From Verrucomicrobiaceae bacterium (GTDB lineage Bacteria > Verrucomicrobiota > Verrucomicrobiia > Verrucomicrobiales > Verrucomicrobiaceae): a stretch of DNA of 64,000 nt. Each line of letters begins with the position of its first letter. Positions within the stretch are counted from its first letter, which is position 1. The position numbers and the translations under genes were made by a program. Below are positions 4,106-18,975 of this stretch, one piece after another. The stretch spans positions 90,955-154,954 of the forward strand of contig JAIYDW010000245.1 in the NCBI GenBank assembly GCA_027487315.1. The letters are read 5' to 3'. Below the pieces are notes generated by a model. It made no database searches, was not told the origin of the DNA, and worked only from the letters and a program-made list of their open reading frames with translations.

Positions 4106-4450
4106 CTAAGGCGGTTCAGTCACTCCATGCTCCCATTTTCGGACATTGTCGGCGTCAGTGTGAATCTTCCGACTAAACCCATACTGGCTCAAACCTAGCA
4201 ATCTGCGTCCTTTCAACACGAGATCAGCGGAGGTTTCGGAGGCGCCTGGATATTGCTCAAGAAACCCAATCAGGCGTGGCCAGTATGAAGCAATTGGAGC
4301 GACTTCATCCCGCTCCCAGCGTTCGTAGCTTTTTCGCACGGTGTTCGAACGATACGCTGCCTGTTTCTGTGTGAGTTTCAAAAGAAGTCGCCTAGATCGG
4401 AGATACTGTCCCAAAATTTCTAAGTTCAACTTAAACCCTTTGTGAACCAA
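4106..4450 (-). CDS. Truncated double-HTH regulator copy, possible pseudogene
   Basis: A shortened copy of the double XRE-type helix-turn-helix gene at 18517..18975. The two align without gaps at a constant offset of 14,468 bp from about 4116 to 4489. This copy stops right after GVTEPP, whereas the other continues about 20 residues, so the last helix is lost. It has no ATG in frame near the matching start; the track uses TTG at 4450, although the frame stays open upstream. Identity to the other copy is very high over the 3' 210 bp and falls clearly in the 5' part. It could still bind DNA, but loss of both ends suggests a relic left when the downstream island arrived. Confidence 0.55.
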   Translation of the reverse strand: MVHKGFKLNLEILGQYLRSRRLLLKLTQKQAAYRSNTVRKSYERWERDEVAPIASYWPRLIGFLEQYPGASETSADLVLKGRRLLGLSQYGFSRKIHTDADNVRKWEHGVTEPP

Positions 4451-4598: not shown

Positions 4599-5588
4599 AT
4601 GGCAAAAAAGGAAACTATCACGAAACAGTCAGATTCAGGAGCGGCACAGGTCAACTTTATGGAGCTCCAGAAACGTGTAATAGAGGGTTCCATTGAGGAG
4701 GATGAATTGAAAAAATTCTTCGTGCGCACCCCAAATAATGAGGAATCCCTAGAGCCACATTTCCAACTTGATCCTGCCCGGGTAAAGGTCCCACCTGAAG
4801 AGGCAACGCTGGAGTCGGCGCAGATGATGAACACTGCCAATGCCTGGTGCTACCTAATGCGCAAAAACGAGTATTATCGACGAATCAATAAGCCCGGCGG
4901 CAACAAGCTTATCCGCGTCATGGCGGAGGGGGACTCCTGGTTTCAATATCCTTTCATCCTGCATGATGTGATCGATCACATCGCCGAACGCAAGGACGTT
5001 GCTGTTCGCTGCTTCAGTGCAGCAGGGGATGTGCTGAGCAACATGGTTGCTCGACCGCAGTTTCTGGAAACGATTCGAACGGAGCGTCCGAAATACTTCC
5101 TGCTAAGCGGCGGTGGCAACGACCTCGTGGATGGCGACGGTCTGCGCAAACTACTGAAGCCCTTTGACCCAAAGCTGAAGCCAAAAAACTACATGAATGC
5201 AGAATACTCAGCTTTTAAGGCACGCCTCTTGCGCCTTTTCAAGGACATATTCAACCTGATCTACCATGAAGATCCGACTATCCACATCATCTGCCATGGC
5301 TACAGTTACGCTATCCCAAATAGTAAGCGCGGCCCATGGCTGGGACGGCCCATGGAGGACATCGGCATCACTGACCGGGCGTTGCAGATGCAGATTATGA
5401 CCCTCATCGTGGATGACATCAACACTGCTGTTAGTAGGGCCGCCACCGCCGCCCGCAAGGCCGGGATCACCGTTTCTTTTGTGGACAATCGCAAGCTGGT
5501 TCCCGCCGACGGCTGGCATGACGAGTTTCACCCGAACTCCAAATGGTTCGGCAAGGTGGCCGCGACTATCAGCGCGCTGATCAAGTGA
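4599..5588 (+). CDS. SGNH/GDSL-type esterase, first gene of the conflict operon
   Basis: A 329-aa SGNH-fold hydrolase. Block I is EGDSWF with the nucleophile at Ser113, block III is GGGND with oxyanion Asn174, and block V is DEFHP with Asp308 and His311. The Gly of block II is probably in AAGDVLSN near residue 143. Family members hydrolyse esters of lipids, acylated sugars or small molecules. There is no signal peptide, so it should act in the cytosol, for instance on membrane lipids from inside. Residues 1-100 are a charged N-terminal extension containing VIEGSIEEDELKKFF, which resembles a segment near the N-terminus of the next protein and may be a short adaptor. It is followed after 60 bp by the protease-EEP gene. 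I infer an effector role within the operon; the substrate is unknown. Confidence 0.8.
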   Translation: MAKKETITKQSDSGAAQVNFMELQKRVIEGSIEEDELKKFFVRTPNNEESLEPHFQLDPARVKVPPEEATLESAQMMNTANAWCYLMRKNEYYRRINKPGGNKLIRVMAEGDSWFQYPFILHDVIDHIAERKDVAVRCFSAAGDVLSNMVARPQFLETIRTERPKYFLLSGGGNDLVDGDGLRKLLKPFDPKLKPKNYMNAEYSAFKARLLRLFKDIFNLIYHEDPTIHIICHGYSYAIPNSKRGPWLGRPMEDIGITDRALQMQIMTLIVDDINTAVSRAATAARKAGITVSFVDNRKLVPADGWHDEFHPNSKWFGKVAATISALIK

Positions 5589-5648
5589 CGGCGCGTCCAC
5601 TTTCAGGCTAACTAAATCCAGTTCAAAAATCAAACCACGTCTACCCTT

Positions 5649-7682
5649 ATGAGTTCTCCCATCCAGCCCAGCTTCCTTCGTGAAACCCCACTTTCCTCTC
5701 CTTCCCCCGCACCCACTTTTGAGATTTCCGGTTTCGAAAGTGCAGGGGCGGCCCCCCTCGCCATCATTGATCGGCCGGCGGCGGACATACCTGCGGACAA
5801 GGCGCAAAAGCACCGGGCGCGGGATTTGTTCATCCGCGGCGTCCTGACGGAGGATCAGATGAAGGAAGCCTCTTCCTCCATGGGCGGGTTTGAGGCCATC
5901 ATCGGCAAGGCGGACTTTCTGCCGGCCTATTTCCTGGAGCAGGGCGTTGTGGTCAGCCGGGCCACCTGTCTGATCAAGGCCTCCGGCGTGGCCTACAACG
6001 GGGTGTATCTGCCGGAATGGACGGGCACTGGCTTCCTCATCGGCGGAAACATCCTGGTAACGAACAACCACGTGCTGAACAGCCGCGATGTGGCCACCAG
6101 TGGGGAGTGCGTCTTCAATTTTCAAAAGACCGTGGCCGGTCTCAATGCACCCACAAAGAGCTTCCGCCTGCGGCCGGACATCCTCTTTATCACGAGTCCT
6201 GCTGTGGGCGGGCTGGACTACACCTTTGTGGCGGTGGACGGGGACCCCGCGCGGGAGTTCGGCAGCGTGCCGGTCACCCGCAAGGCCTTCGAAATCGCCA
6301 AGACTGAGTATGCCAATGTGGTCAGCCACCCGAACGGCAAACCGAAGGTGGTCAGCATCAAGGAAAACGAGGTCAAAGGGCAGGACAAGCTGGTGGTCCA
6401 CTACACCTCTGACACGATGCCCGGCAGCTCCGGTGCCGGAGTGACCAATAACATGTGGCAGCTCGTGGCCCTGCATCATGCCTCTCAGCCCACCGACATT
6501 CCCGGCTTCCCCATTCTGAATGAAGGCATCAAGTTTTCCGCTATCGCCGCGGACCTAGAGAACCGTGTGCAGGCCAGGGCGGCGGACGCGGCCATGGCCG
6601 CACGCGTGCTGGGGGTGTTTGACGGGGTGGATGAGCGGCTCGGCTTCTTTGGCACGCTAGGGCGTCCGTCGCAGGCCGCCGGCAGCGGGCTGGAGCAACT
6701 GGTGAATACCTACCAGGGCGGGGACAAGGACATCGATGTCGGCTTTTGGAATGTGGAATGGCTCAGCAACCGCTATGAAGGGAAAGCCGCCGCCGTGGCA
6801 CAGGTCATCTATGACATGCGGCTGGATGTCTGGTGCCTGGAGGAGTCCTCCCCGAATGGCCTGCAGGCAGTGGTGGATGAGTTGAAAAGCGCCTACGACC
6901 TTGACTTTGCCTACGCTGCGGCCGAACCGGATGCAGCGGATAGCAAACAAAGCTGCACCCTGCTGTGGAATACGACCACGGTGGAAGGCGGCCAGGTACC
7001 CTGGGGGGAGCCCGCTGAGACCTGGATCAGCCTGCACAGCAGGGACTTTGCCCAGACCGGGCTGGAGGCCGTGCATGGCCAGATCTTCAACCGCTATCCG
7101 GCACTGTTCCGCTTCCGCAGCGTGGCGGATGCCGCCCCGGGCAAAAAGCTGGACTTCCACATCGTGCCCCTGCACCTGAAGGCCATGGATGAAGGCAGCC
7201 TCAGACGGACCATGGCGTCCAAGATCATTGCCGCCGCTGTCAACCAACGCCTGGCCGCAGAACCGGATTCCGAATACATCATCGGCGGCGACTTCAATGC
7301 CGAGATCGCCAGCCAGGACTTCGCCGCACTCTCAGACGGCGGTTTCGTGGCGATCAGCGCGGAGGATGAGGCCAACGGCGTCTTCACCTACCTGAAGCGC
7401 CCCTACCTGTCCCTGATCGATCACATCTACCTCTCTCCGAACCTGGCCGCTGGGTCTGGAGCGGACAGCTTTTTTGTCGTGGCTGCGGACAGCGCCTACC
7501 CGGACTACATCCGAACCATCAGCGACCACCGGCCCATAGTCTTTCGCATGAGTCTGGGCGGCAGCAGTGATGGGGGCAGCGGATTTGAGGGCACGGCCAC
7601 CCCGGGCCCGGATGCCGCCCGGCAGCAGGCCGTGGCCACGCTGAAGGCCCTGTGGGAAAAGGCAGGCGTGAAGACTGCCTGA
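5649..7682 (+). CDS. Trypsin-like protease fused to an EEP nuclease/phosphodiesterase domain
   Basis: A 677-aa cytosolic two-domain enzyme. Residues about 100-310 are a chymotrypsin-fold serine protease with what looks like a complete triad: His141 in VTNNHVL, Asp190 in GGLDYTFV, and Ser261 in MPGSSGAG. Residues about 360-635 form an endonuclease/exonuclease/phosphatase (EEP) domain with its conserved positions present: Asn368 in FWNVEW, Glu399 in CLEE, His509 in VPLHLKA, Asp548/Asn550 in GGDFNAE, Asp591 in LIDHIYL, and Asp626-His627 in SDHRPI. EEP enzymes cut nucleic acids or phospho-lipids such as sphingomyelin, so the target is open. The N-terminal 95 residues are a low-complexity leader and a short helical segment. 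It lies second in the operon. The protease might release or activate the EEP domain, or both may be effectors. Confidence 0.85.
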   Translation: MSSPIQPSFLRETPLSSPSPAPTFEISGFESAGAAPLAIIDRPAADIPADKAQKHRARDLFIRGVLTEDQMKEASSSMGGFEAIIGKADFLPAYFLEQGVVVSRATCLIKASGVAYNGVYLPEWTGTGFLIGGNILVTNNHVLNSRDVATSGECVFNFQKTVAGLNAPTKSFRLRPDILFITSPAVGGLDYTFVAVDGDPAREFGSVPVTRKAFEIAKTEYANVVSHPNGKPKVVSIKENEVKGQDKLVVHYTSDTMPGSSGAGVTNNMWQLVALHHASQPTDIPGFPILNEGIKFSAIAADLENRVQARAADAAMAARVLGVFDGVDERLGFFGTLGRPSQAAGSGLEQLVNTYQGGDKDIDVGFWNVEWLSNRYEGKAAAVAQVIYDMRLDVWCLEESSPNGLQAVVDELKSAYDLDFAYAAAEPDAADSKQSCTLLWNTTTVEGGQVPWGEPAETWISLHSRDFAQTGLEAVHGQIFNRYPALFRFRSVADAAPGKKLDFHIVPLHLKAMDEGSLRRTMASKIIAAAVNQRLAAEPDSEYIIGGDFNAEIASQDFAALSDGGFVAISAEDEANGVFTYLKRPYLSLIDHIYLSPNLAAGSGADSFFVVAADSAYPDYIRTISDHRPIVFRMSLGGSSDGGSGFEGTATPGPDAARQQAVATLKALWEKAGVKTA

Positions 7683-7723
7683 GATCAGGATCTCTTCGCC
7701 GAAAAGTCAAAAGAGCGAGATTC

Positions 7724-8863
7724 ATGGCGCACCCCTTTTTCCAAGTTCCAGCCTATCCTTGGCATCGGGAGGAAGCGCGCGCTTTCCACAAGCTCCTATA
7801 TCAGACTCTTCGCGGCATTCCGCTAATCGACAGATATTATAACGCCTGCTCGGCCGAATTGGTTCCGCTTCATTTGGGCCAGCCCGTCGACTTTGTCTGG
7901 AAGGAGTTTTTGGAAAATATCACCGCTAAGGGCGTGTTGCAGGCCTTTGTGGAAAAAGTGGAGGTGGACTTCAAAAAGACCCCCGGCATGGGAGAGGTAA
8001 TTGCCAGGATCCAGGCGGCCATTCCGGCGGTCCGGAAAAAAGTCATCTCGGAGGATGTCGTGGTCCTGGACCAGGAGGAGCTGCGCACGCAAATGGAGCT
8101 GATCGAGTCTTCGACCAGTCTGAAAAAAGTGCTGGTGGTGCGTGGTGGCTCACGAAGCGGCAAGAGCCATGGCCGGTATGTGTTTGACAGCGTGGCGCAG
8201 GACATGTCGGCCGTTTCCGTCTATGTCTGCCAGGACCTGGTGGTCACGGTGGATGATGTCGTGAACCTGCTTTTCAGCACGCTGGAGTCATCGAATGAAA
8301 TGCCCGCGAGACACACGAGCCCGGAGGCTTGGTATCGCCAGGTCTGCTTCAAGCTCAAGGAGTGTGCATCGAAAGGCAAAAAGCAGGTCTGGATCGCCGT
8401 GGACGATCTCGGCCCAGCACTGGATGGAACCGCCAGACTGGACGAGGAGATCCGCAATTTCTTTGACCAGTTTGTCCTGCAGATGCCTAACCATGATTTC
8501 AGGAAATGGTTCCGTCTGATGTTTATCCACTATCCGGACAGCGTGCCCGTCAGATGGAAAAAGGAGCATTGGATCGCGGAGCGGATGGACGCCTCCAAGG
8601 TGACGGCCAAGGAGGTCAAAGAAGCGCTCAAGGTCTGCGCGGACAGTTATGATCTGAAGATGCTGGATGCCGACCTGGAGAAACGGGCGCAGGAGATCGT
8701 TGCCAACGCAGACAAACCCGTGCCTCCGGGTGAGGACCAGGCAGACCGGCTGCAGAGGATTCATGACGCAGTCATCCAGGCGATAAATCTCATGAAGGCG
8801 ACGGCTGCCAGTTACGCCGCTGCCGCCCCGCAGACACCCCGAATGGAAGGAGGTGGGATATGA
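7724..8863 (+). CDS. EAD-containing P-loop ATPase
   Basis: The ATG at 7724 is preferred over the track's 7652: it avoids overlap with the upstream gene and starts right at the conserved domain. The 379-aa protein begins with an all-helical effector-associated domain (EAD, residues about 8-80), with YPW, GQPVDFVWKEFL and a final GVLQAFV. The protein at 12434 carries a clearly related domain. A P-loop NTPase follows, with Walker A GGSRSGKS at 141-148 and Walker B QVWIAVDDLG at about 221-230. In bacterial conflict systems EADs act as homotypic adaptors that link sensors to effectors. The stop overlaps the next start (ATGA), so expression is probably coupled to the large STAND protein. I infer that it links nucleotide-dependent signalling to the EAD-trypsin. 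Confidence 0.75.
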   Translation: MAHPFFQVPAYPWHREEARAFHKLLYQTLRGIPLIDRYYNACSAELVPLHLGQPVDFVWKEFLENITAKGVLQAFVEKVEVDFKKTPGMGEVIARIQAAIPAVRKKVISEDVVVLDQEELRTQMELIESSTSLKKVLVVRGGSRSGKSHGRYVFDSVAQDMSAVSVYVCQDLVVTVDDVVNLLFSTLESSNEMPARHTSPEAWYRQVCFKLKECASKGKKQVWIAVDDLGPALDGTARLDEEIRNFFDQFVLQMPNHDFRKWFRLMFIHYPDSVPVRWKKEHWIAERMDASKVTAKEVKEALKVCADSYDLKMLDADLEKRAQEIVANADKPVPPGEDQADRLQRIHDAVIQAINLMKATAASYAAAAPQTPRMEGGGI

Positions 8864-11800
8864 TTATCGGACGCCGCAGCATTCATGATGTCACCGCCTT
8901 TTCCCAGGGACTGGAAAAAGCGGCCCGGGGGGTGATCCGCATCACCAGTGACGTTGCCGAAGATGCGAGCGTGTGCTCCGGCTTTTTGATCACTGATTCC
9001 CTGGTCATCGTGCCAGCCTATGCGCTGGCCAATAATCCAAGTAAAGTTTTCCTAACCGGAAGTTTCACAGACGATGACGACAGGTTTGAAATGGAGTTGA
9101 TCAGCAAGGACCTGCCTTCAGCGATCCTTTCAGCCGAAGTGCGTCCTGTCGTGCTGCGTCTTCAGAGCGCCTTCCCTGAGCGCGTTTTGACCTTGGGGAT
9201 GGAAAGCTCTGTGGTGGATGAACCGATGTTTGTGCTTCATTTTCCCCAGGGCATGCGAAAGGTAAGTCTGAGCATCGGTCGTATGGTTGAAGCTGAGGCC
9301 GGGTGGCTGCACTATGATGCGGATACCGAAGGTGGCTCGGGCGGCGGGGCTATTTTCAGCGAAAGGAACTGGGCGGTGATCGGCATGCATGTCGTGTCAG
9401 ATCATGAGCGCCAGTTGAACAAGGGTGTGACCCTATCGGCCATGCTGGACGCGCTACGGATTTCTCCGGCCTGGGGGGAGATCGCCGCCTACCATCGGCT
9501 GGCGGATGTATCGGTCGCCAGACCCGATCCGGAATGTTCCCGGCCTCAGGAGACCGTTGTGGAAATCGAGTCCCTCATCAAAGCGGCGGTGCAGTGGAGC
9601 TTTGACCCGGGGACGCTGGAGCATGCCGCCCAGGTGCAGCCTTTGGTGGTGGTGCAGCCGGGCGCATCGAACTGGATGTTGAAGGCGTCTGAAAGGCAGC
9701 GGATCCTTTCCCAGGCGGGTGATCTGCACGCGCTGCGGGGCGTGTATGAAAAGCTCGATGAAGTGATCTCTTCTCCGGGCCAGCAGGTGATCGACCGCAT
9801 CCTGGAAGGCCCGCCCTATGATCTGGACCGAATCAAGGAGGAACTGCTGCCCTACTGGCAGCAGGCGGTGCGCTGGTTCGGGCCGGTCGAGCCGCAACTG
9901 CCCACGGCGGTGGAGGTGAACCAGAACCTGGAAAAACGCCGGGTGCGCAGCCGGCTGGAAAAAATCACCGGGCAGGACTTCCGGGGCCGTAGGCAGGAGC
10001 TGGCCTTGCTGAAGGCCTGGTATGAAAACGATGAGATGGGGCCAATGGTAGTCAGCGGCATTGGCGGGATGGGAAAGTCAGCCCTGGTCGCCAAATTCGC
10101 CCTCAGCCTGCCAGAGACCGCGGTGCTGTTGTGGCTGGACTTTGATCGGGCGGATCTAGCCCCTGATGACGCCGTGTCCATCCTCAGCCTAATGATGGAG
10201 CAGATGGCCCTGCAGTTGCCGGACTTTACCGGCAGGACCATCTCGGAGGCGGACTGGAAAAGGTTTGCCGGGGAAATCGGAACCGCCATCGCCGAAGGCC
10301 CCGGTTGCCTCCTCGTGCTGGACGGCTTTGAGGTGGCGCAGCACTTCAAGCAGTATCAGGAGATCTGGGAGGTGCTGGAGATCATCCTATCCCAGGCTTC
10401 GAATCTTCGGGTCATTGTCAGCGGCCGCGCCCCGGTCAGGGAGCTGAAGCTGAATGATCGGAAGGCAGGCAGCCTGCCTCTCGAAAAGCTGGCCGAAGAA
10501 GACGTCGTTTCATGGCTAAGGACCCACGGCATCGAAGACCCGGAGGTGGTGATGAAGATCACCCGAATCTCTAGGGGGATGCCCCTGATCCTGCGGATGG
10601 CCGTTTATCTCGTGGACAAGGGGGAAGTCAAAGTAATCGAAGACCTGCCTCAGAATCTCCACGACATCCTGATTGAAGGTTATCTCTACCAGCGCATCTT
10701 GGACCGGGTGGTCGATCCTGAACTGATGTCCGTGGCCAGGGAGGCGCTGGTGTTGCGTCGGCTCGATCCCCAGATCCTGAACGCGGTGATAACGGGAAAA
10801 GCCCTCAAAGGCATGGAGGTGGAAGACGTTTACACTCGGCTCCAGCATGAGATCAGTCTGGTGGATGATGAAGCATTGACCCTTCCAACGGGGGGGGATG
10901 GCAGCCTAGCTCTGAGACCGGAGGTGCGTTGCGCCACCCTCTGCCTGCTGGAGCACGAAGACCAAGCCTTGGTCAGGGAACTGGATACCCGGGCCGTCGC
11001 CTGGTATGCGGAGCAGGATCTGACTCAGCCAGAGAATGCGGCGGAACTCGTGTATCATAGTTTGCGACTGAAGAACCTAGCCAGGGCTAAGGCCGCCTGG
11101 CTGCCGGAATGCGCTAGCCTGCTGAAATTCGCAGAAGAGGAACTGCCGGAAGACGCCAAGGCAGAGCGCAAGTGGTTGCGTGAGCAACTCGCTGGGACCG
11201 GTGGGGACGGGGACTTGAAAATTTGGGAGCAGGAGGCGGTCCAGCGGATTCGGTCATCCCTGAGCCGAGGCCTGGAGCGGACTCTTTTCGGCATTTTGGG
11301 GGAAAAGACGCAGCGCAGTGAAAACAGTCCCCTCATATTCTATGATGCCTGGGCGTGCTTCAAAGTAGGGGATTTGCAAGCAGCTTGGAACATCCTCAAT
11401 GCTGCTGAAGAAAGTGCCGGACATATTCGACGTGATCGGACGGTGCTGGGTGCCCTGTTGGCACGAGAGTTGGGTAAGTTAGAGACCGCCGACCAATGGC
11501 TGGCAAAAATTCTGGCGGATGACTGGCCTTCTGGCAACGAACATCCGATAAGAATTGAGGCTCTAGCTATCCGTTCGGCGCGCATTCGGCTGACCATAGA
11601 CCTCCAGGGGGAAAAGACGCTCGCGGAAGAACTAAAAGGAGCGCCGGAATTCTTATTTCATGAGTTGAGAAGGATTCTGACCGAGGCAGACGTCACGCTG
11701 CCGAGCCTAAACTTCCTTTTTGATCGGAATCGCAATATCGAGTCCTACAGGAGATCGACGGTGATTCCAATGCACCACGAGGCTTTGACACACTTCCGGC

Positions 11801-12450
11801 ACAGCATCGAGAGAATAAGATCCTACAAGGCCACGAGCATGGATAACAATCTACAGGTGTTCAATCCTGGAGATTTAAACAACATGGACACATCATCTTT
11901 GGGCTGGCATCTACAGGCTCTTGCCACCCGACGTTGGGACCTAGTAACCACGGACCTATATCTGGCCGAGGTGTGCGAACACGCTCTCGCCAGACACGGA
12001 TATCCGGATGAGCTCCAGCTCTCCGTCGTCGCCAGTCTGATGCCTTTCCGTGGCGTCCCTCTGTCCACCCCGGATGCTCGCTTTGAGTCTTTAGATGAAC
12101 TGCTACTACATCTCTACTTTGAGCGTGAGTTGCAAAAGGTTACCCTTCCCGGCAACAGGATCAGGAAGAACAAGGAACTGATCCTATCACAAATTCCCCG
12201 TCTCCTCTCGGTTCCTTCCTTTTTGAGGTGCCTGGAGCGAGGCATGGAATCATCCGTCTCGCTGAAAGAAAACGACGCAGTCCGTTTGTTTGAATTATTC
12301 GAACTCGAACTCGATCCCGCTAAAATCTTCTTCATGTTTTACGTGCTGGCCCCCGACCCGCTGGAGGCTCTCTGCGAGCACCTAGCCCATCCTGTCAATT
12401 CTACCGATTCAGTTCCTTTTCCCTCCTCCTCATATGGCCTTCAATCTTGA
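8860..12450 (+). CDS. Degenerate trypsin domain-STAND NTPase with helical repeats
   Basis: A 1196-aa protein that is the likely sensor of the system. Residues about 25-210 have a trypsin-like fold with the serine motif EGGSGGGAIF (Ser160) intact. The site of the catalytic His reads IVPAYALAN instead of a TNHHVL-type motif, and no Asp is obvious in AEVRPVVLRL, so proteolysis is doubtful. Residues about 375-700 are a STAND-type P-loop NTPase: Walker A GIGGMGKSA near 399-407, Walker B CLLVLDGFE near 485, sensor RVIVSGRAP, and RGMPLIL resembling the GxP motif of the winged-helix region. The remaining 450 residues are helical and TPR-like, a typical ligand-sensing tail. The gene has the clearest Shine-Dalgarno in the operon (GGAGGTG before the ATG) and overlaps the upstream gene by 4 bp. 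Confidence 0.8.
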   Translation: MIIGRRSIHDVTAFSQGLEKAARGVIRITSDVAEDASVCSGFLITDSLVIVPAYALANNPSKVFLTGSFTDDDDRFEMELISKDLPSAILSAEVRPVVLRLQSAFPERVLTLGMESSVVDEPMFVLHFPQGMRKVSLSIGRMVEAEAGWLHYDADTEGGSGGGAIFSERNWAVIGMHVVSDHERQLNKGVTLSAMLDALRISPAWGEIAAYHRLADVSVARPDPECSRPQETVVEIESLIKAAVQWSFDPGTLEHAAQVQPLVVVQPGASNWMLKASERQRILSQAGDLHALRGVYEKLDEVISSPGQQVIDRILEGPPYDLDRIKEELLPYWQQAVRWFGPVEPQLPTAVEVNQNLEKRRVRSRLEKITGQDFRGRRQELALLKAWYENDEMGPMVVSGIGGMGKSALVAKFALSLPETAVLLWLDFDRADLAPDDAVSILSLMMEQMALQLPDFTGRTISEADWKRFAGEIGTAIAEGPGCLLVLDGFEVAQHFKQYQEIWEVLEIILSQASNLRVIVSGRAPVRELKLNDRKAGSLPLEKLAEEDVVSWLRTHGIEDPEVVMKITRISRGMPLILRMAVYLVDKGEVKVIEDLPQNLHDILIEGYLYQRILDRVVDPELMSVAREALVLRRLDPQILNAVITGKALKGMEVEDVYTRLQHEISLVDDEALTLPTGGDGSLALRPEVRCATLCLLEHEDQALVRELDTRAVAWYAEQDLTQPENAAELVYHSLRLKNLARAKAAWLPECASLLKFAEEELPEDAKAERKWLREQLAGTGGDGDLKIWEQEAVQRIRSSLSRGLERTLFGILGEKTQRSENSPLIFYDAWACFKVGDLQAAWNILNAAEESAGHIRRDRTVLGALLARELGKLETADQWLAKILADDWPSGNEHPIRIEALAIRSARIRLTIDLQGEKTLAEELKGAPEFLFHELRRILTEADVTLPSLNFLFDRNRNIESYRRSTVIPMHHEALTHFRHSIERIRSYKATSMDNNLQVFNPGDLNNMDTSSLGWHLQALATRRWDLVTTDLYLAEVCEHALARHGYPDELQLSVVASLMPFRGVPLSTPDARFESLDELLLHLYFERELQKVTLPGNRIRKNKELILSQIPRLLSVPSFLRCLERGMESSVSLKENDAVRLFELFELELDPAKIFFMFYVLAPDPLEALCEHLAHPVNSTDSVPFPSSSYGLQS

Positions 12451-13513
12451 CATGTTCCCCTATCCTTGGACCGAACCGGCGGCACAGGAGCTGCTGACCC
12501 GGCTCAGCCAGATTCACCCCACGTCCAAGGCCGCCCAGTTTGTGGCCACAACGGTCGGCATGGATCCCGGTTACATTCACTGGGAACAGCCCGTGGTTTA
12601 CGTCTGGATCGAGATCCTCACGAAAGCCTCCACGGAGGGACTACTTCGGGCGATGGTCCAGAAGCAGCATGACCTGCTGAAGGACAGCAGCCCCCACAAA
12701 GTCTTCTTGGCAGACCTGCTGGAAAACAAGCGGCCCGCCTATGGCTCCGATCCTCGAGACTTAGTCGGTGCGCCGAACTTCATCGCCAACGACGACGAGG
12801 TGATGGAGCCGGAGGCCCTGCTGTATTACGATGACCTGACCCTGCCGATCGGCAAGGTGCGGGGCCTGATCAGCACCCTGCAAAAACTCATGGAGTATGC
12901 GCCCTCCGTCTGCCGGTTGGTGGTGGATTTTAACGGCCAGACCGGCCATGGCACGGGTTTTCGCATCGGGCCGGACCTATTGCTGACCAACTGGCATGTG
13001 CTGACCAATCCCTACACGAAACAGAGATGCTCGACCGTCACAGCAGAGTTTGGCTATGAGGACAATGGCCAGGGCGGGGCGCTGTCATCCACCCTCATCC
13101 CTTGCGATGTCGCCAGCATCGTCACCGACAAGGCGGACGACTGGGCCGTCATCAAGACAACGACCGCGATGCCCGATGCCTGGCCCATCCTAAAACTCAG
13201 TGAAGCCTGCGAGCCGAAGCTCCATGAGCCTGCTTACATCATCCAGCACCCCGGGGGTGAGCGGAAACGGATGGGCTTTGTGCGCAACCAAGTCTCCTTC
13301 TTTGATACCCGCGTGACCCATTACCTGACGGACACCCAGGCCGGCTCCTCAGGTTCCCCGGTCTGGAATGCCGATGGCTGCCTCATCGCCCTGCACCATG
13401 CCGGTGGTCGGCCGCAGGAGGTGGTGGGGAAACCGCCAGTCAGCAAGAATGAAGGCATCCGCATCTCCCGCGTGGTCGCCGGACTGCAGGCCGCCGGGGT
13501 GGACATCGCCTAG
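12434..13513 (+). CDS. EAD-trypsin-like serine protease
   Basis: A 359-aa protein. Residues 8-80 are an effector-associated domain (PYPW, EQPVVYVWIEIL, EGLLRAMV) related to that of the ATPase at 7724; the two share the YPW, QPV and VW landmarks. After a linker, residues about 155-355 are a trypsin-like protease with a complete triad: His188 in LLTNWHVL, Asp236 in ADDWAVIK, Ser306 in AGSSGSPVW. There is no signal peptide, so it should cut cytosolic proteins. It is the best candidate for the active protease that the EAD-ATPase and STAND proteins recruit. The start overlaps the end of the STAND gene by 17 bp, which suggests translational coupling. The target protein is unknown. Confidence 0.85.
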   Translation: MAFNLDMFPYPWTEPAAQELLTRLSQIHPTSKAAQFVATTVGMDPGYIHWEQPVVYVWIEILTKASTEGLLRAMVQKQHDLLKDSSPHKVFLADLLENKRPAYGSDPRDLVGAPNFIANDDEVMEPEALLYYDDLTLPIGKVRGLISTLQKLMEYAPSVCRLVVDFNGQTGHGTGFRIGPDLLLTNWHVLTNPYTKQRCSTVTAEFGYEDNGQGGALSSTLIPCDVASIVTDKADDWAVIKTTTAMPDAWPILKLSEACEPKLHEPAYIIQHPGGERKRMGFVRNQVSFFDTRVTHYLTDTQAGSSGSPVWNADGCLIALHHAGGRPQEVVGKPPVSKNEGIRISRVVAGLQAAGVDIA

Positions 13514-13551
13514 GTCACGTGAACGTCATCCCGAAGGCTGACTGACCCACT

Positions 13552-14868
13552 ATGGCACTCACAGACGCTCAGATCGGCACGGTCGTCACCGTGGTGGGGA
13601 AGGTCTTTTCACCGACGGACCCAGGGCTTTATCTCCTGGTGCTGACCCGCGTAGGACTGGACATGTCAAAGATCGTGGTGCTGAACAGTAATTGGTATCA
13701 GCAGGTGATCGATTTGGTGAAGGAGCTTCAACGACGCGGGGCCCTGCGGGTATTCATCCTTGCCGTGTTGGATAAGTTGCCCGGCAATCCCGAAGTCCAG
13801 TCCACCCTGCCGCCGCTGCTGTCTGACCTGGAGCAGGAGGATGTCCACCCGGCGCAGACCGTGGCCCAGGGGCTGGGTGGTCTGCAGGCCAGCTTGCATG
13901 ACGCTGCTGTCAAAGCTGCAGCCAAGACCCTGGAGAGCAGTCTGGAATCGCTCACCCAGGACATCTTCACCATGAATGCCTACAAGTTGCTGCATGACTG
14001 CCTGCACCGGCTGCCGGCACAATTGAAAATCATTGAGCCGGCCATACGGAATATCTCGGCTCCGACCTTCAAACTGACCGCCGCACAATGCCAGGATGAG
14101 ATCAAAAGCCTAGTCAATCTGGGACGAAGTGTCCTCAACGGCATCCATCCCTCTCTGGCCGCTGAACGCGCGACTGAGCAGGACTGGCTGGACGAACTGG
14201 CCGGGATCGGGGCCAGGCTCGGGGCGCTACGTAAGGATCCGCTGGTTCCTAGCCCCAACCCCGGAGGCCCCCCGCGACCCAATCCCCTGGGGATCCAGAT
14301 CATCCATAACCTCCGCTCCATGCACCTCCGGCAGCCCTCACGGATCGATGGACTGCTGACCGCCTATGCCAGCACGTTGGAGCTGGAAAGGCTGGAGAAG
14401 CTCTTCGACGATATCATCGCCGTGCCTGCCGCAGCGGCATCGTTAAAAGACTCTCTGCAAAGCGCCAGCACCTCCCTCAACCAGATCAAGCTGCAGATCC
14501 AGGCGCTGATCCACCGGCATCGATACTGGCAGAAGATCGACAAGGAACTCCTGGTCGCGGCGGATGAACTGCCCAAAAATTCGGCGGATCCCGGGGACTT
14601 TCCCGCCCTTTGGGAGGGCATCCGCAACGAGGTGGATAACATGATCATGATCGAGCCGAACACGGAGGTCAGCACTACCCTGAAAGACTTGGCCACGGCC
14701 ATCGACACGCATGGTCTCTCCGACTGGTCCGCCGCCAGGGATCCGTTTGAAAGCCACCGGGCCTGGTGCATGATCTACTTCTTTTCGGTCGATACGGAAC
14801 TGAAGGATAAGTGCAAGGAAGCTGCTGATATAGGGGCTTCCCTGAGAAACCTGCTCAATAACCTCTAA
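13552..14868 (+). CDS. EAD1-like domain protein with a long helical region
   Basis: A 438-aa protein. Its N-terminal ~80 residues look like an EAD1-type death-like adaptor: helices ending in GLYLLVLTRVGLD, then NWYQQVIDLVKELQRRGALRVFI, and a closing LPGNPE. The rest is predicted helical, with a segment MNAYKLLHDCLHRLPAQ near residue 142, a Pro/Gly-rich linker (NPGGPPRPNP) near 230, and further helices to the C-terminus. No catalytic motif is visible, so an adaptor or scaffold role is likely. The downstream membrane protein starts only 3 bp after its stop. Its EAD differs from the two in the neighbouring genes, which suggests it addresses another partner. Confidence 0.65.
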   Translation: MALTDAQIGTVVTVVGKVFSPTDPGLYLLVLTRVGLDMSKIVVLNSNWYQQVIDLVKELQRRGALRVFILAVLDKLPGNPEVQSTLPPLLSDLEQEDVHPAQTVAQGLGGLQASLHDAAVKAAAKTLESSLESLTQDIFTMNAYKLLHDCLHRLPAQLKIIEPAIRNISAPTFKLTAAQCQDEIKSLVNLGRSVLNGIHPSLAAERATEQDWLDELAGIGARLGALRKDPLVPSPNPGGPPRPNPLGIQIIHNLRSMHLRQPSRIDGLLTAYASTLELERLEKLFDDIIAVPAAAASLKDSLQSASTSLNQIKLQIQALIHRHRYWQKIDKELLVAADELPKNSADPGDFPALWEGIRNEVDNMIMIEPNTEVSTTLKDLATAIDTHGLSDWSAARDPFESHRAWCMIYFFSVDTELKDKCKEAADIGASLRNLLNNL

Positions 14869-14871
14869 TCT

Positions 14872-17181
14872 ATGTCCCAGCCTTCTCAAACACTCGCCCC
14901 TGAGGCCTTCCGTTCCGCGGGAGAGGTGCGCACGGAGCACTCCAATCTGCTTCAGCGTCGCGGTTCCACGGGGCCCATCGCAGAGGCCGAGGTGATCGCC
15001 TTTCTCAAGGCGGTCAGTGCCACAGGCCACCTCCTACCCGACAGCGATCCCGACGCGCGTGAGTCGGTTCGGGGCATCCTGGACTACTGGACCGCCACCC
15101 TCCTGAGCATGAATCCGCAACTGGCCCGGGAGGCTCCGTCCTATCTACTGCTACAGCCCTATCAGCAGGAGGAGGTCCAGGCCCTGGAGGCCCATTTTGA
15201 GAGCCAGGACGCAGAGCTGAGCCAGGTCATCGACCTGGCCGGACTCTTCACCGACCAGGCGTCAAAAAAACAGAAGCAGCTTCTCGGCAAACTACTGCTG
15301 CGGTTGGTGCATCTCAAAAAAGGCTCCGTGGAGCCCTACACCGCCCTGGTGCAGCCCTCCGATCTGGACGATCTGGCGGAGAAGGCGGTCTGCGATGAGC
15401 TTTTGAAAATGAAGATCCTGGTCTCACGGCAGGAGGATGGGCAGCTCACCCTGCGGCATGAAAAGCTCTTCACGGAATGGCCTTTCCTGGCGGAACGCAT
15501 CAAGCACCGCCGTGAGTTCCGGGAATTTGCCATCAGTTGGCGAAAAGGGAACCGCTCCGCCGCAGCGCTGCTAAACCGGGGTAAGGAACTCGAGGAAGCC
15601 AAAAGCTACCGCGATCTGGAGCCCGTAGAAAACGACTTTTTGGCGGGGAGCCTTGCCCGCGAGAAGGGCGTCTGGAATGACCGACTGATCGCTGCCGGCA
15701 TCGCTATTGTGGTGCTGCTCGGCATGACTGTGTGGATCTATATGAAGTATCAGGATGTGGACAAAAAAAATATCGAGGTGACTACCCAGGCCGACCAACT
15801 TGAGGACCAGAAAAAGGAACTTGAAGTGCTGGTCAAAGACCGGGACAAGGCCATCGCAGGTCTTCGAGCGAAGGAAATAATCGATCAACAGCAGAAGGAG
15901 GAACTGCAAAAGCAAAAAGTCGAACTCGAAGCCAGGGGCAGGGATCTAACGTCGGCCAGGGACAAACTCGCCGCCGAAAAAGATGAGGCGCTGGAGAAAC
16001 TGAAACTGCTGACCACGAGCCTGGAAGATGCCGCAAAATACAAGGTTAAGGCGGATCTCTTAGAGCAGCAGATAACCCAGGTGGCCAACAATATCGCCGA
16101 GGGGAAAAGCTTTGCCCCGCAGGCCCGGGAGATCCTCACGACTTACCGGACCGGTGTCCAGGATGATACGAAAAAGGCCACCGAAGAAATCACCCACGCC
16201 CCACTGGCGCAATCCTTGGCCAATTTTGACTTGGGCACACAGCAGGCCCTGCAGCCAGGTAACGGCATCTCTACCCGGTCCAAGTCCGGGGAGAGCCGCG
16301 GCAGCCTGGGCGTCTTCGTCCAGGATGCGGCCAATAACCTCTACATCGTCTCCCCGGCCTACATCCTCTCCGGCGGTGCGGGCACACCCGTTTTTACCGG
16401 ACGTGAGAAAAAGGAGGCGCAGATCGGCACTGTCAGCGGCATCACCAGCCTGGATGCCTCCGACCTGACCAATCTGGGCCTGGTGAAGCTAAATGCCGGA
16501 GTGCCCGCCTCCAATGTGGTGGACGGGTTGGGAGAGATCAAGGGGATCGAGCCCAATCCAGTGCACGGCATGGAGGTCATCCTCCTCGGCAGCGGCTCCG
16601 GCATCAGTGAGGGGAAGATCCTCGACACCCGTAACGACGGCACTATCGTTACGGACCGACGGATTTCCCAGCCAGGTGATGAAGGCGCTCCTGTTATCGC
16701 CAAAGGAAGCAAAAGGCTCGTGGGGTTGCTGATTTCATCTACCACGGACACGTCCATTTTGAAATCCATCAAGCCTTTACTGGCCGAACATGGCCTGAAG
16801 ATCTATCAGACCACTCCGGCCACTAAAAACGACTTCTCCGGTGTTCTGGCGGAGATCTTTGTCTCGGCGGACAACGCCCTTAATATCACCCGCGCGGCGA
16901 AGTATGTGAAGGCTTTGCAAATGGCCGGCGTTCGCCTGCCTGTGCCGGAGGCCCAGCCGCGCAACAAGGTCCCCTCGACGATCAGTGAAGTCCGTTATTT
17001 CTACGAAAATTCGGAGAACAAGGCCATCGCGGAAAAGGTGATGGCGGAACTCATTCAGGCTGGCCTTCCCGCCAATAAAGTCCGCGTCTACCCGACGCCG
17101 GATGCCACGGCCCCTCAACGCTTCATCCAGATCTCCCTAGCCAAGGCCGCCTTCGCTGCATCGCCTCCGCGCCGCCGCTGA
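14872..17181 (+). CDS. Membrane-anchored STAND-tail/coiled-coil protein with a dead protease-like domain
   Basis: A 769-aa multidomain protein. Residues 1-260 resemble the winged-helix and helical segment that normally follows a STAND (nSTAND1-type) ATPase (LTLRHEKLFTEWPFLAERIK, then SWRKGNRSAAALLNRGKELEEA), but no P-loop precedes it. One transmembrane helix lies at about 272-291 (AAGIAIVVLLGMTVWIYM), followed by a ~110-residue coiled coil rich in Lys/Glu. Residues about 440-660 have a trypsin-like layout with lost catalytic residues: SPAYIL at the His site and GDEGAPV where GDSGSPV is expected, so Ser became Glu. The C-terminus (RYFYENSENKAIAEKVMAEL) resembles LytR_C/SPOR-like domains. It is probably a membrane receptor or scaffold, with the coiled coil and protease-like part on the far side. 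Confidence 0.7.
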   Translation: MSQPSQTLAPEAFRSAGEVRTEHSNLLQRRGSTGPIAEAEVIAFLKAVSATGHLLPDSDPDARESVRGILDYWTATLLSMNPQLAREAPSYLLLQPYQQEEVQALEAHFESQDAELSQVIDLAGLFTDQASKKQKQLLGKLLLRLVHLKKGSVEPYTALVQPSDLDDLAEKAVCDELLKMKILVSRQEDGQLTLRHEKLFTEWPFLAERIKHRREFREFAISWRKGNRSAAALLNRGKELEEAKSYRDLEPVENDFLAGSLAREKGVWNDRLIAAGIAIVVLLGMTVWIYMKYQDVDKKNIEVTTQADQLEDQKKELEVLVKDRDKAIAGLRAKEIIDQQQKEELQKQKVELEARGRDLTSARDKLAAEKDEALEKLKLLTTSLEDAAKYKVKADLLEQQITQVANNIAEGKSFAPQAREILTTYRTGVQDDTKKATEEITHAPLAQSLANFDLGTQQALQPGNGISTRSKSGESRGSLGVFVQDAANNLYIVSPAYILSGGAGTPVFTGREKKEAQIGTVSGITSLDASDLTNLGLVKLNAGVPASNVVDGLGEIKGIEPNPVHGMEVILLGSGSGISEGKILDTRNDGTIVTDRRISQPGDEGAPVIAKGSKRLVGLLISSTTDTSILKSIKPLLAEHGLKIYQTTPATKNDFSGVLAEIFVSADNALNITRAAKYVKALQMAGVRLPVPEAQPRNKVPSTISEVRYFYENSENKAIAEKVMAELIQAGLPANKVRVYPTPDATAPQRFIQISLAKAAFAASPPRRR

Positions 17182-17234
17182 CCCGCCGATCTTCCTGCCC
17201 ACCTCAAATCTCCCAACTCCACCCCACCACCTCC

Positions 17235-18266
17235 ATGCCCACCACGGACGCCACCTGCCTCACTCGTTCCGGTTTCAACCTAGACATCGCCGTCTTCCTC
17301 GCCGAAGCCTCCGCCGCCGCCTACGGCGAGAAGGCAGTCACTGAAACCTGGGCTCGGGGGCGCGGTTTCAAAGTGCATGAAGCCTTTGACCGGTCTAACA
17401 TCCAGGGCTTCTGGTGCACGGCGGGGGATATGGCCCTGCTCGCGTTCCGAGGCACCAGCAACATTAAACAATGGATCCGAGATGCCCAGCTTCTGACTGT
17501 GGCCCATCCCTGGGGCCAGACGCACAAAGGCTTTACTGAGGGGTTGGCACTGGTGGAGCAGGATCTCCAGCTTTTTGACGTGGCGGCTGCCAAGGCCAGG
17601 CATGTCTGGATCACCGGTCACAGTTTGGGAGGCGGTCTCGCCCTGCTTGCCGCAGCCCGCCAGAAGATGAAAGGAATCCGTTCCTCCATCTACACTTACG
17701 GTCAGCCCAGGGTGGGCCTGAGCGGCTTTGCTGAACGCTTCGCAATAGAATTGCCAGGGCGGCTGCATCGCTTCGTCAATCAAAGTGACATTGTGACCCG
17801 GCTGCCGCCGGAAGCGTTTTTCTACAACCACACGGGCATCGTCAAGCGCATCGTGCGGCCCGGGGTCCTGGAGCTTGCCTTGGAGTCGGCCCGTATCACA
17901 CGCACGCTTCAAATGGAATGGTCAATCAAGGCGACCAGCGCGCTGGGACTGGGCTTGGAAAGCTCCTTAGTGCCAGCATCAAGCATGGCCTCGCTGGCGC
18001 AGAATGCCACACTGGACAGCAAGGTCTTTGAGACAGCCCTGGCCGTCGTCGGCGCAGGGCTGACGGAGTCCATGTTCATTGACTGCGAGTTGCCCTCACT
18101 AACAGCCGGAGAATTTGCCACCTTGCAACTCAGCTTGCAGACGGATTCGGGAATTCTCGGTATGGAGGGCATGATGCTGGAAGGTCTCCTGCCATGGTTT
18201 GATGACCACAGCATCACGGAATACATCCGTCTGCTTACTGAAATACGAGATCAGGAAACTTCCTGA
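17235..18266 (+). CDS. Class 3 lipase, last gene of the conflict operon
   Basis: A 343-aa alpha/beta hydrolase of the lipase class 3 family. Features seen are the AFRGTSNIKQWIRD segment typical of the family, the nucleophile elbow GHSLGGG with Ser130, YGQPRVG at about 155, a probable catalytic Asp185 in NQSDIVTRLPP, and His199 in FYNHTGIVK. The family usually hydrolyses triacylglycerols or phospholipids. There is no signal peptide, so it should meet the inner membrane from the cytosol. With the SGNH esterase at the other end of the operon, it makes a membrane-damaging effector plausible. The last ~130 residues are helical and unassigned. It starts 53 bp after the preceding gene on the same strand. 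Confidence 0.85.
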   Translation: MPTTDATCLTRSGFNLDIAVFLAEASAAAYGEKAVTETWARGRGFKVHEAFDRSNIQGFWCTAGDMALLAFRGTSNIKQWIRDAQLLTVAHPWGQTHKGFTEGLALVEQDLQLFDVAAAKARHVWITGHSLGGGLALLAAARQKMKGIRSSIYTYGQPRVGLSGFAERFAIELPGRLHRFVNQSDIVTRLPPEAFFYNHTGIVKRIVRPGVLELALESARITRTLQMEWSIKATSALGLGLESSLVPASSMASLAQNATLDSKVFETALAVVGAGLTESMFIDCELPSLTAGEFATLQLSLQTDSGILGMEGMMLEGLLPWFDDHSITEYIRLLTEIRDQETS

Positions 18267-18516: not shown

Positions 18517-18975
18517 TCAGTGCTTTGCGCGTTGCGATTTAGATGCAAGAACCTTGATCATCTTCAGCATCTCAAGGTTAGGCTCAGTCACTCCATGCTC
18601 CCATTTTCGGACATTGTCGGCGTCAGTGTGAATCTTCCGACTAAACCCATACTGGCTCAAACCTAGCAATCTGCGTGCTTTCAACACGAGATCAGCAGAA
18701 GTTTCGGAGGCACCTGGATATTGCTCGAGAAACCCAATCAGGCGTGGCCAGTATGAAGCAATTGGAGCGACTTCATCCCGCTCCCAGCGTTCGTAGCTCT
18801 GTCGCACAGTGTTCAAAAGATTAGCTACCTGCTCCTGGGTGAGTTTCAAAAGAAGTCGCCGAGCTAGCAGGTGCTCTCCCAAAGTCTCGGGGTTCAACTT
18901 GAACCCTCTGTGAACAAGATTTCGGAACCTGAGGGCTGTTTTGGAGGCCTTGATGGTGAAGTAGCAAAATGGCAA
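18517..18975 (-). CDS. Double XRE-type helix-turn-helix regulator
   Basis: A 152-aa protein with two tandem helix-turn-helix units. The first is about residues 32-75 (LLARRLLLKLTQEQVANLL, then WERDEVAP); the second is about 100-145 (LKARRLLGLSQYGFSRKI, then VRKWEHGVTEPNLEML). Proteins with this layout are common small transcription factors in accessory DNA. It is transcribed toward the conflict operon, convergent with the lipase gene. A truncated near-copy in the same orientation sits on the other side of the operon (4106..4450), so the pair brackets the island. A likely role is control of the island; the near-palindrome before 4599 is a candidate target. Neither its upstream region nor the gap to the lipase contains an obvious terminator. 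Confidence 0.75.
   Translation of the reverse strand: MPFCYFTIKASKTALRFRNLVHRGFKLNPETLGEHLLARRLLLKLTQEQVANLLNTVRQSYERWERDEVAPIASYWPRLIGFLEQYPGASETSADLVLKARRLLGLSQYGFSRKIHTDADNVRKWEHGVTEPNLEMLKMIKVLASKSQRAKH

Follow-up and report, generated by a model that had tools for sequence, protein, structure and literature searches.

Bacterial STAND/NLR receptors studied so far, such as those of the Avs, bNACHT, and CARD-NLR systems, mostly sense intracellularly and switch with ATP. In Hachiman and Avs, pro-nucleases are activated by proteases (PMC12799240), and in Caulobacter, the trypsin–CARD, NLR, and trypsin–endonuclease proteins of LypABC are required for lysis, as is the peptidase activity of LypA and LypC (PMC13236601). 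Thus, a step leading from protease to effector has experimental precedent. EAD8 is proposed to recruit trypsin to an nSTAND1 sensor (PMC10907252), and in the related VMAP systems, the trypsins that occupy the effector position are described as almost all inactive (PMC7159879).

Here, we analyze an operon within a 64,000-nucleotide stretch of DNA from a Verrucomicrobiaceae bacterium (the window). The setting is already known, namely that of NucA-trypsin and CARD-NLR-like conflict systems. Our best reading is that one gene, w14872, encodes a transmembrane sensor of such a system, with a putative pathway running from a periplasmic sensor to a cytoplasmic adaptor, from there to a protease, and finally to effectors. 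The operon spans 4599–18266, with intergenic gaps of 60 bp or less, and contains the following genes:

4599..5588, + strand: hydrolase of the GDSL/SGNH type, with which the operon begins (PF13472, E 0.003, below the cut-off)
5649..7682, + strand: probable effector in which a trypsin with intact triad is joined to an EEP-family nuclease/phosphatase (PF13365, PF03372)
7652..8863, + strand: EAD-like domain plus ATPase (P-loop GGSRSGKS); start probably at 7724
8860..12450, + strand: second pseudo-trypsin (Y54/R95/G161) plus P-loop STAND ATPase, NLR-like (GIGGMGKS at 400)
12434..13513, + strand: EAD1-like domain plus trypsin with intact triad H188, D236, S306 (domain match, alignment)
13552..14868, + strand: EAD1-like domain plus helical adaptor, a conserved partner, 3 bp upstream of w14872
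14872..17181, + strand: w14872, membrane protein of 769 aa (ORF, domain matches, homologues)
17235..18266, + strand: class-3 lipase, likely effector (PF01764, E 1e-23)

Two trypsins of the operon, those at 5649–7682 and 12434–13513, retain intact triads. The EAD1 matches in the operon lie below the cut-off (E 0.003, that of w13552, and 0.05); w7652 and w12434 have a common N-terminal domain (z 10.2).

Among described systems, System 3, the NucA-trypsin system of Kaur et al. 2020 (PMC7159879), resembles the window in its multiple trypsins, its trypsin–nuclease fusions, and possibly its EAD1 coupling, and, as presented there, also in having some parts fused to transmembrane (TM) segments and an occasional STAND ATPase. 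The window shares the fusion of nuclease and trypsin, but its nuclease domain is EEP (PF03372) instead of NucA-type (Endonuclease_NS); NucA itself, as in System 3, is found in the related loci of G551, G004, and Tahibacter. The section devoted to System 3 does not mention a P-loop-less STAND-tail receptor with a swappable sensor, a helical adaptor, or a lipase, and the word "lipase" is absent from the main text of that paper (PMC7159879). CARD-NLR systems, LypABC included, are described as combining a trypsin with a helical N-terminal domain, an NLR-like ATPase, and a trypsin–endonuclease, all of which have putative counterparts in the window, and variants carry phospholipase-type effectors, comparable to the window lipase (PMC13236601). 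By domain types alone, the content of the window matches the CARD-NLR list. The window differs from these systems in possessing a receptor module that lacks an NTPase and a single-pass membrane sensor, and the trypsin and ATPase halves described for LypA are separate genes in the window.

Parallels to w14872 itself exist among nSTAND1 proteins (PF20703; Kaur et al. 2021, PMC8195603; here L004), which share its winged-helix tail and juxtamembrane segment and, in L004, a TM helix; in w14872, a three-helix N-terminal domain stands in place of their ATPase core. EAD8–nSTAND1–sensor proteins (PMC10907252) likewise have a variable C-terminal sensor and a trypsin partner. The iSTAND and iSTAND2 proteins of MoxR-vWA systems (PMC7159879, PMC8195603) resemble w14872 as non-functional STAND signaling modules with trypsin partners, but their STAND domain is described as present and inactive, whereas in w14872 the core is absent. 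The window operon proteins scanned contained no MoxR or vWA domain, and Pfam gave no iSTAND match. No system model in PADLOC-DB 2.0 matched the locus; the only matches were generic ones to proteases, propellers, NACHT neighbors, and coiled coils. In the literature passages compared, we found neither a single-pass receptor that joins a P-loop-less STAND tail to an exchangeable outside domain nor NTPase-free cassettes built around one.

The w14872 protein is ordered as N-terminal domain, nSTAND1 tail, TM helix, coiled coil, pseudo-trypsin, and C-terminal domain, with the following predicted parts:

14899..15141, + strand: N-terminal three-helix domain, about residues 10–90 (alignments, AF2 helices)
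15238..15528, + strand: nSTAND1 C-terminal winged-helix tail, residues 123–219 (PF20703 columns 264–360)
15529..15663, + strand: juxtamembrane helical segment, residues 220–264 (alignment, tail matches)
15685..15744, + strand: TM helix, residues 272–291 (KD hydropathy 2.4)
15745..16116, + strand: coiled-coil-like stalk, residues 292–415 (composition)
16279..16791, + strand: triad-less trypsin-like domain, about residues 470–640 (profile evidence, alignment)
16987..17166, + strand: C-terminal alpha/beta domain, residues 706–765 (common to G551 and G556)

An initial sequence-only reading of this gene had proposed an orphan STAND tail without a P-loop, a TM helix followed by a coiled coil, and a trypsin-like domain deprived of its catalytic triad; each of these elements was recovered. 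The tail matches nSTAND1 above the cut-off (E 6e-9), with the similarity confined to the C-terminal part of the profile. No Walker A motif (G-x4-GK[ST]) occurs anywhere in w14872, and between the N-terminal domain and the tail there is room for only about 30 residues. Thus, the ATPase core is missing altogether, not just mutated. An AF2 model of residues 1–303 places helices at 16–33, 38–54, and 60–85 (pLDDT about 80 at 11–50) and gives residues 132–195 the element order of a winged helix, H-E-H-E-E (pLDDT 50–60). This model has no significant match in the PDB, nor did the full-length protein yield one in a PDB sequence search. The juxtamembrane segment occurs in full-length nSTAND1 proteins as well. 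Residues 291–415 are proline-free, rich in E/K/Q/A/L, and heptad-like in composition, and the stalk matches only generic coiled coils (DndD, SMC).

The N-terminal domain is the defining part of the w14872 family; the sequence-only reading had picked up neither this domain nor the sensor exchange and the conserved gene cassette described below. It has no Pfam match and no recognizable homology to any EAD, and it is common to all P-loop-less members and to one Tahibacter protein, in which a version of the domain 42% identical to that of w14872 is joined to a TM helix and a NucA nuclease, with no STAND tail. At the other end of the protein, the alpha/beta domain is 34% identical to its G556 counterpart (E 2e-7). 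Assignment of this domain to LytR_C (PF13399) is not supported: the possible likeness arises via Tahibacter only, and a direct search was not significant.

The loss of the P-loop extends beyond this one protein. An order-level search of 387 genomes with a three-member profile returned six loci that match the whole N-terminal domain plus the tail (the window, G004, G015, G544, G556, and G551), and none of the six has a P-loop upstream of the tail. These members span two families, since G551 falls in a different family within the order. G004 and L007 encode the identical protein, G004 being the genome of Verrucomicrobium sp. BvORR034 (L007). The sequence-only reading had named, as one case that would speak against it, homologues that possess a P-loop lost only in w14872. 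Given that all six members, drawn from two families, are without one, the absence in w14872 is not a local loss, and the P-loop-less architecture is conserved. The tail-only matches that were opened all have a P-loop upstream, mostly about 290–300 residues before the tail. Across 289 sampled genomes of the phylum, strong nSTAND1 matches were full length or included the P-loop part, with tail-only matches coming from the window and G004; no complete nSTAND1 protein was found in the window's own genome. A tree of the tails, unrooted and weakly supported, agrees with the P-loop core having been lost once.

Distribution of the family is patchy. The first, two-row profile found it in 2 of 388 phylum genomes, and three genus-mates have no homologue of w14872. 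Searching the 388 genomes with the N-terminal domain returned, beyond the window and G004, only weak matches (E 0.001–0.005), two of which, when opened, proved to be other frames or unrelated proteins. Plasmid tblastn searches with full-length w14872, the Tahibacter N-terminal domain, and the N-terminal half of the G015 protein gave no match.

The domain beyond the stalk is assigned through its relatives. With the w14872 sequence alone, the trypsin domain falls below detection in Pfam and PDB searches. The protein does match the NCBIfam Rv1815 serine proteinase (E 4e-4) and is 25–29% identical to L010 (E 6e-6), an active-type exported lipoprotein protease that carries a coiled coil and an intact triad. 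A family-level search added ten further active exported proteases, making eleven with L010, and the domain is closest to this exported group, lipoproteins or proteins with a signal peptide, from the bacterial family and order to which the window belongs. Because the A3 profile had matched the exported proteases partly via L010, the link was re-tested without the query. A profile of the 11 active proteins scored w14872 at 14.4 bits, against a maximum of 8.7 in 2000 shuffles of its C-terminus, and a profile of w14872 plus G551 matched the 11 active relatives with 90% probability (E 1.4e-6, profile–profile), scoring 48 where 100 column-shuffled controls scored at most 23. When the C-terminal domain was modeled with AF2 alongside six remote trypsins, the result was poor (pLDDT 42); its best PDB matches, TEV protease and granzyme H (E 0.07–0.5), are suggestive only. 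A trypsin fold is suggested by the profile evidence. The exported Verrucomicrobiota proteases (L010, L019–L028) belong to the same sequence family, and presumably share the fold, but unlike w14872, they keep the triad and lack the TM–STAND part.

None of the three catalytic residues remains in w14872. SPAYIL aligns to TAAHVL, with Y beneath the catalytic H; Tyr497, Asn534, and Glu604 thus occupy the positions of His, Asp, and Ser. The sequence-only reading had identified the change of Ser to Glu correctly but, off by one residue, had taken the His replacement to be Ala; the Asp is also lost. In a joint alignment with the pseudo-trypsin of G551, the His column holds Tyr in both proteins, the Asp column holds Asn in w14872 and Glu in G551, and the Ser column holds Glu in w14872 and Ala in G551. 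Since G551 is the sole other pseudo-trypsin member and has Ala there, the idea that Ser-to-Glu is a functional switch conserved across homologues was rejected.

The presence of a second pseudo-protease in the operon, as originally proposed, was confirmed at the N-terminus of the 8860–12450 product, where Tyr54, Arg95, and Gly161 sit at the triad positions. In sequence, this domain goes with the operon's cytoplasmic-type trypsins. It has no relative among viral contigs; on plasmids, the nearest sequences include serine proteases of Rhizobium that lie in NucA loci. Given that the kin of w8860 are cytoplasmic-type and those of w14872 exported, the two pseudo-proteases probably reside on opposite sides of the membrane, and the shared recognition role once suggested for them now appears weak. 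Both of them (9013–9030 and 16351–16368), together with G551, display the motif PAYxL where active relatives have xxHVL. The two that lie in the operon stem from different trypsin lineages. The motif possibly reflects convergent plugging of the active site; with so few members, convergence and chance look alike.

The position held by the pseudo-trypsin is an exchangeable slot. The window and G551 have the pseudo-trypsin there (33% identity over residues 460–765, E 5e-39), and G004 and G015 have a WD40 propeller with an SH3-like tail, the SH3 likeness being a reading of the sequence. G544 (L083 75–2755) has WD40 repeats in a frame separate from the N-terminal part of the receptor, owing to a frameshift, an assembly error, or a genuine split, and G556 has the C-terminal domain alone, with no sensor domain. 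The C-terminal domain has thus been swapped between relatives. Between the window and G015, the receptors are 26% identical, compared with 68% for w5649 and its cassette counterpart and 52% for the lipases (w17235 is likewise 52% identical to the G551 cassette lipase). A receptor that diverges faster than its effectors fits the expectation for a sensor.

Our best guess at topology is N-in/C-out. Three considerations lead to this placement: relatives have positive flanks on the N-side of the TM helix (N-side versus C-side, +3 versus +1 in L007, +4 versus +1 in L008, and +5 versus -1 in the full-length nSTAND1 protein L004), the partner proteins in the window operon have no strong N-terminal hydrophobic segment, and the kin of the pseudo-trypsin are exported. 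The flanks of w14872 itself carry +1 versus 0, a weak bias. With this orientation, the pseudo-trypsin would probably be periplasmic.

The partner genes form a conserved neighborhood of trypsin, helical adaptor, and receptor, in which the helical protein lies upstream of the receptor and the trypsin comes before or within the helical protein. Homologues of w13552 occur in L007 (7906–9573, z 12) and in G556 (E 2e-30), and w12434 has a homologue in G015 (35% identity, E 2e-33); the G015 helical adaptor was equated by position, not by significant similarity. How protease and adaptor are linked varies. In the window, the link consists of EAD1-type domains and is weak (z 3.3). In G015, the trypsin and the helical protein carry one common EAD-like N-terminal domain (z 8.4), unlike that of the window, and G004 and G551 encode the two as a single fusion protein. 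The four complete loci also have a trypsin–nuclease fusion and a Lipase_3 gene nearby, the nuclease being EEP in the window and G015 and NucA in G004 and G551. No P-loop protein or NTPase is present in the G015 and G551 clusters. Relative to these minimal cassettes, the window operon has three extra genes, which encode the GDSL-type hydrolase, the EAD-ATPase (w7652), and the pseudo-trypsin–STAND ATPase (w8860).

The anatomy, the triad loss, the conserved absence of the P-loop, the exchange of sensors, the gene cassette, and the EAD matching or direct fusion are established at the level of sequence; from them, we infer topology, ligand sensing, order of activation, and a defense function as follows. 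We propose, with a probability of roughly 0.6, that w14872 serves a trypsin-based conflict system, probably one for antiphage defense or cell death, as its transmembrane receptor, with the dead trypsin as its sensor in the periplasm. A periplasmic ligand would bind the exchangeable C-terminal domain, here a dead trypsin serving as a peptide- or protein-binding sensor whose groove could hold a peptide without cutting it. The coiled coil and the TM helix would relay the signal to the N-terminal domain and the STAND winged helix in the cytoplasm; transfer across the membrane, an idea already present in the sequence-only reading, is kept here as the natural interpretation. The cytoplasmic part of w14872 would then gather the adaptor w13552 and also draw in the active trypsin w12434 by way of the matched EAD domains. 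This closeness would activate the protease, which would in turn activate or release the trypsin–EEP nuclease w5649 and the lipase w17235. Because the ATPase core is missing and the minimal cassettes have no NTPase, this branch would not need an ATP-driven STAND switch.

A bolder formulation, which we hold tentatively and judge to have the odds somewhat against it, is that the system is a bacterial Toll-like arrangement, that is, an NTPase-independent immune receptor facing the periplasm, in which homotypic domains recruit a protease that acts on a nuclease and a lipase. Its parts, proposed just as tentatively, would be an exchangeable sensor (pseudo-protease or propeller), a single TM helix, and, in the cytoplasm, a STAND remnant with an adaptor domain.

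The chief challenge to a receptor role comes from the operon's own ATPases. w8860 and w7652 may drive activation, with w14872 merely an anchor, and this counts against the receptor model. Specifically, w14872 could be a scaffold that holds the protease–adaptor complex at the inner membrane beside the lipase substrate while w8860 does the sensing. The operon does hold a set of CARD-NLR-like parts, namely trypsin plus EAD, EAD plus ATPase, a STAND ATPase with a long C-terminus, and a trypsin–nuclease (w12434, w7652, w8860, and w5649), and the G556 member manages without any sensor domain. We nonetheless consider an anchor-only role unlikely: the G015 and G551 cassettes have receptor and effectors yet no NTPase, and C-terminal swapping with fast divergence suits a sensor better. 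Envelope-stress or developmental signaling in place of defense against invaders, for example programmed lysis, has a precedent in the related LypABC system, which is described as controlling host lysis for GTA release (PMC13236601). The patchy distribution, including the absence from all three genus-mates, and the fast divergence of the receptor fit conflict better, making signaling of this kind quite improbable.

The kinship of the pseudo-trypsin raises another possibility, that of a decoy: by mimicking active periplasmic proteases, the dead exported-type domain would trap inhibitors or effectors that invaders direct against them. Inactive enzymes have been proposed as decoys by Kaur et al. 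(PMC7159879), and the domain is indeed closest to active proteases that are exported in the same bacterial family. But the window's own genome holds no active relative at E 1e-4, and the WD40 propellers in the same slot mimic no protease; a general binding role therefore accounts for more, and we regard the decoy proposal as very unlikely. That w14872 is simply a decayed gene, a truncated nSTAND1 protein joined by chance to a degenerate protease, might seem to follow from the disappearance of both ATPase core and triad; it is scarcely credible when the same architecture recurs in open frames of independent genomes and a second family, at 33% identity, has the same His-to-Tyr change.

If w14872 is a receptor as we propose, part of an NLR would have been turned into a transmembrane receptor, with the winged helix kept, the ATPase lost, and a TM helix and swappable outside domains gained. 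Such a receptor could then detect an invader at the envelope, as its genome is being injected or even earlier. As defined cassettes of 4–5 genes, G551 and G015 make the role of the pseudo-protease or the propeller directly testable.

We note some further features of these loci. A ternary system of VMAP-C, MoxR, and vWA-Roc-COR-EAD1-trypsin (L007 73–6547) adjoins the G004 receptor cassette. In the window, a terminator-like hairpin at 18251–18266, at the end of the lipase gene, plausibly marks where the operon stops; in this sequence, such patterns often arise by chance. Finally, a 300-bp direct repeat (4113–4412 and 18581–18880, 92% identical) flanks the whole operon. The repeat is a gene for a two-HTH regulator, the upstream copy having one TAG stop inside, and it occurs in only two copies in the genome and in none of the three genus-mates. 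It may mark the insertion or duplication of the operon together with its regulator.
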